Shown here one piece after another: positions 23,051 through 34,858 of a DNA stretch of 64,000 nt. Origin of the DNA: Chelatococcus caeni. GTDB taxonomy: Bacteria; Pseudomonadota; Alphaproteobacteria; Rhizobiales; Beijerinckiaceae. Location of the stretch: positions 1-64,000 of the forward strand of contig NZ_JACIEN010000010.1 in assembly GCF_014196925.1 (NCBI RefSeq), given 5' to 3'. The number at the start of each line of letters is the position of its first letter. The stretch's first letter is position 1. Below the pieces are notes generated by a model. That model ran no database searches. It worked only from the letters and a program-made list of their open reading frames with translations, and had not been told where the DNA came from. The translations under genes were made by a program, and so were the position numbers.

Positions 23051-23104
23051 GCGGACCGCAGGGCGGCCATGCGCGCCCTGCGATCGAAAAGCGCCGGATG
23101 CCGT

Positions 23105-23135
23105 TTGACCCTGTAGTCGCTACAGGAATTATGGT
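23105..23135 (+). promoter_or_regulatory. MerR-family-type promoter with 19-bp spacer before the metal ATPase
   Basis: -35 TTGACC (23105-23110) and -10 TATGGT (23130-23135) are separated by 19 bp, the overlong spacing corrected by MerR-family activators. The spacer carries a perfect dyad, CCTGTAG-TCG-CTACAGG (23110-23126), as in CueR, ZntR, CadR or PbrR operators. Transcription would start near 23142, just before the ATG at 23168. No merR-type gene is in the window, so the regulator would act in trans. Confidence 0.78.
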
Positions 23136-23167: not shown

Positions 23168-25411
23168 ATGCACACCGGCACCCATTCCACTGCGCATCTT
23201 CCGCAAGAAGCAGGCGGCTGCTGCGGCCATCACCACGCTCATGGCGAGCACGACCACGGGGCCCCCTCCGGCGGGGCCTCGCCGGCGGCCTTCACCTGGC
23301 GCGTCGAGGGGATGGACTGCGCGAGCTGCGTCGCGACCATCGACAAGGCGCTGTCGCGGCTGCCGGGTGTCTCGGGCGTCTCCGTTTCGCTCGCCCGCGA
23401 GACCGTCTCGCTGGACCTGGGCAACGGCACGAGCACCGGCGAGATCGAAGCGCTGCTCGGCCGCCTCGGCTATCGCGCCGCGCGCCTCGCGTCACCGGCG
23501 ACGCCGGGCGCAGCGACGCCGGCCGAGCCCCGCCGGGCCGCGTCACCGTCCTGGTGGGCGACCGGCAAGGGCCGCATCGCCATTGCGGCCGGGCTTCTCC
23601 TCCTCGTTGCCTACGGCGTCAGCCTGGCCGATGCGCGCCTCGCCGATGCCGCCTTCATCGTGGCGAGCCTCGTCGCCGCCGCGCCCATCGCCCGGACCGC
23701 GCTGCGCAAGGCCGTGGCCGGCGCGCCCATGACCATCGACATGCTGATGACGGTTGCCGTCATCGGCGCGCTCGTCATCGGCGCGGTGGAGGAGGCGGCC
23801 ATCGTCGTCTTCCTCTTCTCCGTCGGCGAGGTGCTGGAGGGCGTGGCGGCCGAGAAGGCCCGCTCCGGCATCCGTGCCCTTGCCGCCCTTGTCCCGCAGA
23901 CGGCCCTGCGCGAGACCGGTGGCCGGCTCGAAGGCGTGCCGGCCGAGGCCCTCGCCATCGGCGACGTCGTCGTGGTGCGCCCCGGCGACAGGGTGCCCGC
24001 CGATGGCGTCGTCCTCGAGGGGCGCTCGAGCCTCGACGAGGCGCCGATCACGGGCGAATCCGTGCCCGTCGCCAAGGGACCGGGGGACAAGGTCTTCGCC
24101 GGTGCCATCAACGCCGAGGCGGCCCTGCGCGTGACGGTGGAGGCGGGCGCCGCCGACAACCTCATCGCGCGCATCGTGCGCCTCGTCGAGGAGGCGCAGG
24201 ACGCCAAGGCGCCCACCGCCCGCTTCATCGACGATTTCGCCCGCTGGTACATGCCGCTCATCGTGGCGCTCGCCGCCGCGGTGGCGGTGGCGCCGCCGCT
24301 CGTCGCCGGCGGGGACTGGATGACGTGGATCTACCGCGGCCTGACGCTGCTGCTCATCGGCTGCCCCTGCGCGCTCGTCATCTCCGTACCCGCGGCCATG
24401 GCCTCGTCGTTGTCCTCGGCAGCGCGCAATGGCCTGCTCGTCAAGGGCGGCGCCGTCATCGAGCGGCTGGCGGGCATCGATACGGTGGCCTTCGACAAGA
24501 CGGGCACGCTGACCGTCGGCCGCCCGGTCGTCACCGACATCGTGCCCGTCGGCAGCCGTGACGCCGCCGGCCTCCTCGCCCTCGCCGCCGCGGTCGAGAG
24601 CCATTCCAGCCACCCGCTCGCCGCAGCCGTCGCGGCGCGTGCCGAAAGGGACGGCGTCCAGCCACCAGCGGCCTCGGATGTGCGCGCCCTGCCCGGCAGG
24701 GGCATGGAAGGAACGGTCGACGGCACACGCGTCTTCATCGGCGCGCCGCCCTTCGCCGCCGAAAGGGCGTCGCCCGACGACGCCTTGCGCGCGTCGATCG
24801 CGCGGCTGGAAGGCGAGGGCAAGACGGTCGTCGTCATCGTCGCCGGTGCCGAGGCGGCCGGGCTGCTCGCCCTGCGCGACGAGCCCCGGGCCGATGCGGC
24901 CGAGGCGGTCGCGGAACTCGGCGCGCTCGGCGTCGGCAGCCTCATGCTGAGCGGCGACAATCCGCGCACAGCGGCGGCCATCGCCGGCGCGCTGGGTGTC
25001 GAGGCAAGGGGCGGCATGTTGCCGGCGGACAAGGCCGCGGCCATCGGCGAGCTCGCCGCCCGGCGGCGCATCGCCATGGTCGGCGACGGCATCAACGATG
25101 CGCCGGCGCTGGCGCGGGCCCATGTCGGCATTGCCATGGGCGGCGGCACCGATGTGGCGCTCGAAGCCGCCGATGCGGCCCTGCTGCACGACCGGGTGCG
25201 CGACGTGCCGGTGCTGCTGCGCCTTTCGCGCGCGACCATGACCAACGTGCGCCAGAACATCGCCGTCGCCCTCGGGCTCAAGGCGCTCTTCCTCGTCACC
25301 ACGGTCGTCGGCGCGACGGGCCTGTGGATGGCCCTCCTCGCCGATACCGGCGCGACCGTGCTCGTCACGCTCAACGCCCTGAGGCTACTTGCGTTCTTCC
25401 GGAGGGCGTGA
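23168..25411 (+). CDS. Heavy-metal-translocating P1B-type ATPase (Zn/Cd/Pb type)
   Basis: 747 residues. The N-terminus is Cys/His-rich (GGCCGHHHAHGEHDHG) and is followed by one heavy-metal-associated domain with GMDCASC (about residue 49). The P-type core has TGES, the intramembrane CPC motif in IGCPCALVISVPAA, the phosphorylation site DKTGTLT, the SHPLA motif and the hinge GDGINDAPALA. A CPC with a His-rich tail and a downstream late-span Asp (LADTGATVLVTLNALRLL) fits the Zn2+/Cd2+/Pb2+ exporter subgroup (ZntA/CadA) rather than Cu. It should export toxic divalent metal from the cytoplasm, induced through the MerR-type promoter just upstream. Confidence 0.94.
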   Translation: MHTGTHSTAHLPQEAGGCCGHHHAHGEHDHGAPSGGASPAAFTWRVEGMDCASCVATIDKALSRLPGVSGVSVSLARETVSLDLGNGTSTGEIEALLGRLGYRAARLASPATPGAATPAEPRRAASPSWWATGKGRIAIAAGLLLLVAYGVSLADARLADAAFIVASLVAAAPIARTALRKAVAGAPMTIDMLMTVAVIGALVIGAVEEAAIVVFLFSVGEVLEGVAAEKARSGIRALAALVPQTALRETGGRLEGVPAEALAIGDVVVVRPGDRVPADGVVLEGRSSLDEAPITGESVPVAKGPGDKVFAGAINAEAALRVTVEAGAADNLIARIVRLVEEAQDAKAPTARFIDDFARWYMPLIVALAAAVAVAPPLVAGGDWMTWIYRGLTLLLIGCPCALVISVPAAMASSLSSAARNGLLVKGGAVIERLAGIDTVAFDKTGTLTVGRPVVTDIVPVGSRDAAGLLALAAAVESHSSHPLAAAVAARAERDGVQPPAASDVRALPGRGMEGTVDGTRVFIGAPPFAAERASPDDALRASIARLEGEGKTVVVIVAGAEAAGLLALRDEPRADAAEAVAELGALGVGSLMLSGDNPRTAAAIAGALGVEARGGMLPADKAAAIGELAARRRIAMVGDGINDAPALARAHVGIAMGGGTDVALEAADAALLHDRVRDVPVLLRLSRATMTNVRQNIAVALGLKALFLVTTVVGATGLWMALLADTGATVLVTLNALRLLAFFRRA

Positions 25412-33922: not shown

Positions 33923-34858
33923 ATGCCGACCGCCGCCATCGTGGGAGCAGGCCTCATCGGCCGGGCCTGGGCCATCGTCTTTGCTCGTGCCGGCTGGGAC
34001 GTGCGCCTGTGGGATCCGCATCGGCCGACCCTCGCCGAGGCGCCGGCGCTCATTGCCCGTGAATGCGAGGAACTTGCCCGCCACGGGCTCGTCGACGATG
34101 TGGCAGCCGTCGCCGCCCGGGCGCACGTCGCCGCCTCCCTTGCCGAAGCGGTGGGCGAGGCGGACATCGTGCAGGAGAACGGGCCGGAGAAGGTGGAAGC
34201 CAAGCGCGCCATCTATGCCGATCTCGACCGGCTGGCGCGGCCCGATGCCATGCTCGCCTCCTCGACCTCGGCCATCGTCGCCTCGCTCTTCACCGAGGAT
34301 CTGCCCGGCCGGGCGCGCTGCCTCGTCGCCCATCCCGTCAATCCGCCGCATCTCGTGCCGGTGGTGGAATTGTGCGGCGCGCCCTGGACGGCGTCCGAGA
34401 CGATGGAACGTGCCCGCGCCATCTACGAGGCCGTCGGCCAGGTGCCGGTCACGGTCAGGAACGAGATCGACGGCTTCATCCTCAACCGCCTTCAGGGCGC
34501 GCTGCTGGCCGAGGCCTTCCGCCTGGTCGAGGAGGGCTATGTCTCGCCGCAGGACCTCGACCACACGGTGAAGGATGGGCTCGGCCTGCGCTGGTCCTTC
34601 ATCGGCCCGTTCGAGACCATCGAATTGAATGCTCCCGGCGGCATGGCCGATTACTGCGCACGCTACACCGGCTTCTACAAGCGCCTCGCGGCCGACCCGG
34701 CCCGCCCGGAGGTCTACGACCCGGAGAACGTCGAGAAGGTCCTCGCCGCCTGGCACGGCTCGGGTGATCCGTCCCGCATCGCCGCGCGCAGCGAATGGCG
34801 CAACCGGCGCCTCGCCGCGCTCGCCGCCCACAAGAAGAGCCAGCCCGGTGACCCCTGA
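33923..34858 (+). CDS. 3-hydroxyacyl-CoA dehydrogenase family protein (3-hydroxyacid / carnitine dehydrogenase-like)
   Basis: 311 residues. The N-terminal Rossmann fold opens with AAIVGAGLIGRAWAIVFARA and contains EADIVQENGPE and ASSTSAI, and the helical C-terminal domain holds NEIDGFILNRLQGALLAEAF and DGLGLRWSFIGPFETIELNA. This pattern is shared by L-carnitine dehydrogenase and lambda-crystallin/L-gulonate dehydrogenase, which act on free hydroxy acids rather than CoA esters. The next gene (BKACE) cleaves beta-keto acids, so oxidation of a 3-hydroxy acid such as carnitine is a reasonable model. It lacks the thioesterase domain fused to many rhizobial carnitine dehydrogenases. Confidence 0.85.
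   Translation: MPTAAIVGAGLIGRAWAIVFARAGWDVRLWDPHRPTLAEAPALIARECEELARHGLVDDVAAVAARAHVAASLAEAVGEADIVQENGPEKVEAKRAIYADLDRLARPDAMLASSTSAIVASLFTEDLPGRARCLVAHPVNPPHLVPVVELCGAPWTASETMERARAIYEAVGQVPVTVRNEIDGFILNRLQGALLAEAFRLVEEGYVSPQDLDHTVKDGLGLRWSFIGPFETIELNAPGGMADYCARYTGFYKRLAADPARPEVYDPENVEKVLAAWHGSGDPSRIAARSEWRNRRLAALAAHKKSQPGDP

Follow-up and report, generated by a model that had tools for sequence, protein, structure and literature searches.

A MerR-type promoter upstream of a zntA-like gene of Chelatococcus caeni, very probably under the trans control of an unlinked ZntR/CadR-like regulator

The part of PMC1526738 on which we draw describes the spacer-distortion mechanism of MerR-family regulators. 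It attributes to the Escherichia coli zntA promoter (PzntA) an overlong 20-bp spacer that carries a dyad with CTGGAG half-sites. According to the same excerpt, zntR lies mostly apart from zntA, no ZntR sites precede zntR, and cadR and cadA are usually arranged as a divergon. The E. coli zntR and zntA genes are unlinked, at 3,438,705 and 3,606,451, approximately 167 kb apart. For Brucella, a portion of PMC10800456 describes inverted repeats in the intergenic region shared by zntR and zntA and reports that zntA transcripts were approximately 30-fold lower in a zntR deletion mutant of B. ovis. Here, we describe the MerR-type promoter of a zntA-like gene in C. caeni, for which an unlinked ZntR/CadR-like protein, designated L002, is very probably the trans-acting regulator. 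This reading is based on the anatomy of the promoter, its conservation, a genome-wide count that returned two sites, the match of the recognition helix, and the pattern of linkage among relatives.

Promoter and pump gene

The window analyzed is a stretch of 64,000 nucleotides (positions 1 to 64000) contained in contig C10 (67,852 bp) of the C. caeni genome (G000; 5,433,240 bp in 19 contigs, with completeness listed as 100). Three further genomes of the same genus (G001, G002, and G003) were compared with it, and gene linkage was surveyed in 60 genomes, 36 from the same family and 24 from the same order.

The earlier note had reported TTGACC and TATGGT 19 bp apart with a perfect CCTGTAG-TCG-CTACAGG dyad between them, and we confirmed both the coordinates and the arms. 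The -35 element, TTGACC, occupies positions 23105 to 23110 of the forward strand. The operator dyad, the predicted site of a trans-encoded ZntR/CadR-like regulator, follows at 23110 to 23126, and the -10 element, TATGGT, lies at 23130 to 23135, so that the complete string reads TTGACC-CTGTAGTCGCTACAGGAAT-TATGGT. The 7-bp arms pair perfectly (7-3-7), and the first C of the dyad doubles as the last base of TTGACC. In MerR-type promoters the boxes are 19 to 20 bp apart and an inverted repeat is centered in the spacer; this is the arrangement found here, with an overlong spacer of 19 bp. The dyad is centered on position 23118, and seven bases (23111 to 23117) separate the -35 box from the center. 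An excerpt of PMC5045206 gives the same distance for CueR/CadR-type sites, in which 7 bp separate the dyad center from the -35 box, counted from the 3' end of the box.

TTGACC and TATGGT, allowing any spacer from 10 to 24 bp, occur together only once in the window; the mean in 100 shuffles was 0.01, with a match in 1 of the 100. We also used a custom composite score comprising the -35 element, the dyad, and the -10 element. The zntA promoter obtained the maximum score of 16. Among 400 first-order simulations, each 600 bp long, none scored above 12, a value attained by 10 of them, and when both strands of the 64-kb window were scanned, one other place passed the filter (score of at least 13 and spacer of 19 to 20 bp), with a score of 13. 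G000, G001, and G003 share the same boxes, dyad arms, and spacing and differ in the flanking bases. The promoter upstream of the zntA-like gene is a real MerR-type element, and it is very probably functional.

The ATG of the ATPase gene lies 32 bp past the end of the -10 element (23135). The gene spans positions 23168 to 25411 of the forward strand and encodes a P1B-type ATPase of 747 amino acids, predicted to export Zn, Cd, and Pb, with a His-rich N terminus, one HMA domain, and a CPC motif that was identified by eye. The HMA, E1-E2 ATPase, and hydrolase domains were all found. The protein exceeded the NCBIfam cut-offs for heavy-metal ATPases (TIGR01525, 596 of 346 bits) and cadmium ATPases (TIGR01512, 517 of 313.5 bits) and was just above that of the copper subfamily (TIGR01511, 405 of 397 bits). 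The earlier assignment of the promoter to a Zn/Cd/Pb-type pump gene is supported. The ZntA-level cut-offs were not reached (PRK11033, 808 of 1005 bits; P_type_ZntA, 732 of 1240 bits), and we therefore call the pump ZntA-like; its metal is a prediction. Between the end of the preceding DUF2189 gene (23050) and the promoter, a hairpin with perfect 8-bp arms (GCAGGGCG/CGCCCTGC; 23058 to 23081) and no T run was read by eye. It may insulate zntA against upstream transcription.

Candidate regulator and operator sites

Profile searches of G000 placed no MerR-family match on contig C10 (0 of 8 for PF13411 and 0 of 9 for PF00376), which bears out the earlier observation that the window lacks a MerR gene. 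Eight genes, L001 to L008, exceeded the PF13411 (MerR_1) cut-off. Two PF00376 matches under the cut-off were set aside by eye as a ParA-like protein with a helix-turn-helix (L024) and a small excisionase-like protein (L025).

The sole divalent-metal-type (ZntR/CadR-like) sensor among the eight is L002, encoded at 101547 to 101993 of contig C2. It contains an N-terminal MerR helix-turn-helix domain and a MerR-DNA-bind domain, both over cut-off. Its best solved relative is CadR, and Cys85, Cys120, and Cys128 align with three cysteines of CadR as well as with three of E. coli ZntR. Divalent-metal sensors of the MerR family carry one cysteine in the dimerization helix and two in the metal loop, and L002 has this set of three. 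The adjacent pair of metal-loop cysteines of the E. coli type is absent, Gly121 replacing the second cysteine of ZntR. L002 falls below every NCBIfam equivalog cut-off listed (CueR, 110 of 147; CadR-PbrR, 108.5 of 151; ZntR, 88.7 of 168 and 96.8 of 143), so its metal can only be inferred, and its proposed binding, activation, and autorepression are likewise predictions from homology. Orthologues in G001 and G003 are 95% and 91% identical, and their contigs differ from those of zntA.

The curated NCBIfam comparison took in six of the eight MerR_1 genes. L004 exceeded the CueR cut-off, and its neighbor is a copper-ATPase-like gene preceded by CTTCCCA/TGGGAAG-type sites. L005 exceeded the SoxR cut-off; neither L004 nor L005 was retained as regulator of zntA. 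L003 and L006, small MerR-type proteins beside different dyads, were rejected as well, as were L001, L007, and L008, which by eye are unlike metal sensors. Two of these surroundings have features of their own. Two CueR-like promoters precede the copper-ATPase-like gene and cueR (positions 34000 to 37157 of contig C6), standing back to back on opposite strands, approximately 50 bp apart, at about 1988 to 2097 of that region; one has the dyad CTTCCCA-TCA-TGGGAAG, and the other has one mismatch. L006 (region 246415 to 249609 of contig C1), a MerR-type protein related to SoxR, reaches 55 of the 117 bits that the SoxR cut-off requires. Two cysteines lie close to the C terminus of L006, and the dyad TTGACCTCAAGTGAACTTGAAG stands in front of it.

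The exact pattern CTGTA-N5-TACAG occurs at two places in the 5,433,240 bp of G000: the zntA promoter and the promoter of L002 itself. The latter site is the dyad TCCATATCTGTA-GCCTT-TACAGATATGGA, with 12 of 12 positions paired. Under a first-order model based on the composition of the window, 0.09 occurrences would be expected per genome; this model is only a rough guide, because the reversed control pattern was found 18 times against 2.5 predicted, an underestimate for some patterns. Chance does not account for both sites falling in the promoters of zntA and L002. G001 also has two sites only, at its zntA and its zntR. In G003 the exact pattern occurs only at zntA, both half-sites of the zntR dyad having changed, and G002 has a single occurrence at a different locus, beside another MerR-family gene whose product is 47% identical to L002. 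The dyad upstream of L002 has no MerR-type -35/-10 arrangement around it and, from its placement, appears positioned for repression, not activation.

The genome search for CCTGTAG-N3-CTACAGG suggested by the earlier note returned a perfect match only at 23110 to 23126. With up to two mismatches there are eight places in the genome, and these inexact matches carry little meaning, because the reversed control gives 62 per strand. The pattern TTGACN-CTGTAG-N3-CTACAG, again with up to two mismatches, was found in G000 at the zntA promoter only and at no other metal gene; inexact matches to it in the other 59 genomes were not counted, the reversed control often being as frequent. Among the 10 TTGACY-N17-21-TANRNT sites of G000, only that at 23105 of C10 contains a CTGTAG/CTACAG dyad. 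The suggestion that the pump might share its control with other metal genes thus found no support: there is one promoter-type site (up to two mismatches), and the other exact CTGTA-N5-TACAG stands before L002.

A gene for a CobW/COG0523-type GTPase (PF02492 and PF07683) comes after L002 (region L202; 96000 to 106000 of contig C2). It is preceded by TGTAATGTTACAACGTTACATT (5480 to 5501 of L202), which we take to resemble a Zur box; L002 would therefore lie beside a probable zinc-starvation gene.

We propose that, without metal, an L002 dimer on the dyad of the 19-bp spacer would keep the zntA promoter weak or repressed. A divalent metal (Zn, probably also Cd and Pb) would bind the three cysteines of L002 and thereby distort the spacer, allowing sigma-70 RNA polymerase to engage both boxes. 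L002 would probably also act as its own repressor, by way of the TCCATATCTGTA-GCCTT-TACAGATATGGA dyad that closely precedes the start of its gene.

Half-site bases, linkage, and rival explanations

The portion of PMC5045206 that we used correlates residue 14 of the MerR domain with half-site bases, pairing E with G and T, K with C, and D with G; V14 goes with T on the opposite arm, and proline is absent from its Table 2. L002 alone among the eight MerR_1 genes of G000 has Glu14 (L004 has Lys), and the CTGTAG half-site of the zntA operator agrees with the published pairing of E14 with G and T. A MerR protein with a matching recognition helix, which the earlier note had made a test of its proposal, is therefore encoded in the genome. 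With the matching site in the promoter of L002 as well, the earlier view that the pump is controlled in trans is very probably right.

We compared residue 14 with the operator in 88 regulators with a core-like operator, a set whose related rows are not independent. G was present in both half-sites for 40 of the 50 E14 regulators, in one for 9, and in neither for 1; the 38 regulators with other residues had G in both half-sites in no case and in one half-site in a single case. This count left out L083, L085, and L125 (length or helix), L079, L124, L134, L135, and L165 (whose dyads lack the core form), and every row in which no promoter was called, including the own-genus regulators L056, L057, L058, and L120. 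V14 regulators (13 rows) had A in both half-sites at 11 of 12 called sites. P14 regulators had C in both half-sites at 14 of 21 sites in a first set (in one at 4 and in neither at 3) and C/C at 50 of the 51 sites called from 53 rows in a second family set. The latter comprised 60 regions from the best 68 of 114 matches; L300 duplicates the G022 regulator (L059), and L261 has no helix call. The 51st site, L243, reads G/G, lacks the core form, and is probably spurious. Residue 14 thus seems to follow the middle base of the half-site: CTGTAG goes with E, CTATAG with V, and CTCTAG apparently with P. Shared phylogeny is a possible cause of the pairing, because well-supported branches provide only two independent E/G pairs and one P/C pair. 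Among the best matches listed by our literature search we found no proline-C rule, which does not imply that none is in print. Close relatives in which the pair is either linked or unlinked, and whose operator half-sites follow a single helix residue (E-G, P-C, V-A), form a clean set for testing the co-change of MerR regulators and their sites.

Linkage was scored as a regulator match with an E value of up to 1e-20 within 3 kb of a ZntA orthologue of at least 50% identity. In the 60 genomes of the family and order, a regulator lies this close to 18 of 25 orthologues, with residue 14 being Pro in 10, Glu in 7, and Ala in 1. The earlier statement that the activator usually adjoins the pump thus stands for these relatives, but not for E. 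coli, in which the genes are unlinked, and the excerpt of PMC1526738 describes them as mostly apart. The seven unlinked orthologues are those of G000, G001, G003, G005 (C65, a contig of 4,999 bp), G009, G041, and G054. The first three have a full-score promoter. That of G041 (L211) has the CTATAG-type promoter TTGAAG-CTATAGTAACTAGAGGTCC-TATGTA (score 12, the edge of the simulated null), and that of G005:C65 (L213) has the CTATAG-type promoter TTGACC-CTATAGCAGCTGGAGGTCC-TAGATT (score 13). Because these two retain such promoters, unlinked pumps with MerR promoters are not restricted to the genus, and trans control may have had more than one origin. Upstream of the G009:C198 orthologue (L214) is the CueR-like dyad CTTCCCA-TCA-TTGGAAC (score 12), and this pump has possibly switched to copper control. 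No convincing MerR-type promoter was found in the 571 bases upstream of the G054 gene (L212; best score 11, no -35 box), for which another kind of control is possible. From the regulator side, a P-type ATPase motif was found near 14 of 80 loci, of which 25 had incomplete flanking DNA, and a second set had a ZntA match within 30 of 60 regions. This weaker linkage indicates that relatives of L002 often serve other transporters.

Could another MerR protein of G000 work the zntA promoter? L003 to L006, that is, CueR (L004), SoxR (L005), and L003 and L006, are the remaining regulators of usual size. Cross-talk within the MerR family is known and counts in favor of one of them. However, the copper-ATPase-like gene by L004 has CTTCCCA/TGGGAAG-type sites, L003 and L006 adjoin other dyads, and Glu14 is absent from every other MerR_1 protein of the genome, so we consider this very unlikely. 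There is some residual chance that a regulator gene was missed in an assembly of 19 contigs. We regard it as extremely unlikely that the promoter is a relic whose adjacent regulator was lost, leaving zntA weakly constitutive. The linkage of 18 of 25 relatives does suggest that a neighbor may have been lost or moved, but three genomes agree in boxes, arms, and spacing despite differing flanks, and a matching regulator that shares the half-site is still encoded. The unlinked zntA genes of G041 and G005:C65 also keep MerR-type promoters (scores of 12 and 13), an indication that trans control is ordinary.

L002 might also not be the inherited partner of zntA: the pump gene would have kept the promoter of a lost neighbor, and L002, as a ZntR of another lineage with close kin that bind CTCTAG, would have captured it with a Glu14 that it already had or acquired. 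The pumps of G000, G001, and G003 are sister to those of G018 and G021 (100/99), and grouping them with the pumps of G022, G008, and G034 was rejected (P = 1.6e-8); the G018 and G021 regulators lie on a different branch of the ZntR trees, with support of 100/98 for the dividing branch in one of them. The nearest relatives of L002 by path outside the genus carry Pro14. The closest of these (L242/L121), 67% identical to L002, has CTCTAG and is divergent to a Cation_efflux-family gene, not an ATPase gene. Nevertheless, AU tests on the ZntR trees, which span only about 120 columns, did not reject grouping with inherited partners (P = 0.0545, 0.113, 0.104, and 0.565), and the tree with a P value of 0.565 has a likelihood slightly above that of the free tree. 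A regulator swap was therefore tested but not established, and we consider it unlikely. Doubtful, if conceivable, is the fuller proposal that a ZntR of the other branch (kin CTCTAG/Pro14) took over a distant, orphaned zntA promoter, the operator becoming fully CTGTAG/CTACAG along with the regulator's own promoter, and that, more broadly, residue 14 largely sets the middle base (E-G, V-A, P-C). If true, the takeover would be a natural protein-DNA co-change between unlinked loci. Because the AU tests do not reject trees with inherited Glu14 partners, plain separation of an inherited zntR-zntA pair suffices as an explanation. In three genomes of the genus, the two genes have come apart and the operator has been retained.

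Comparison with known systems

The pairing of zntA with L002 is well supported and mostly ordinary, a distant regulator being already known from E. coli. What it offers is a concrete regulator, with its operator, for an orphan metal promoter; the prediction combines a criterion of two sites per genome with a published recognition code. Among the best matches listed by our literature search, nothing concerned zntR or zntA of Chelatococcus, which does not imply absence from print.

As in E. coli, the predicted activator of the ZntA pump is an unlinked MerR-family protein, and a dyad lies in an overlong spacer. Unlike PzntA, the promoter described here has a 19-bp spacer and CTGTAG half-sites, and a dyad stands in front of the regulator gene; the second adjacent cysteine of E. 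coli ZntR is not conserved in L002. The 19-bp spacer, the three CadR-aligned cysteines, and the combination of E14 with G/T are shared with the CadR/PbrR-cadA/pbrA systems of Pseudomonas and Cupriavidus. A site before the regulator gene that appears placed for repression is what the excerpt of PMC1526738 describes for CadR. In contrast to the CadR/CadA divergon, L002 and zntA are unlinked, and L002 is below the CadR-PbrR equivalog cut-off. Brucella likewise pairs an alphaproteobacterial MerR-type ZntR with ZntA, but from a shared intergenic region, whereas the C. caeni genes lie on different contigs. The linked zntR-zntA loci of relatives (for example, G022, G013, and G035) have an orthologous pump of 50 to 65% identity, a homologous regulator, and a MerR-type promoter; they often combine CTCTAG with Pro14, whereas C. 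caeni combines CTGTAG with Glu14 at unlinked loci.
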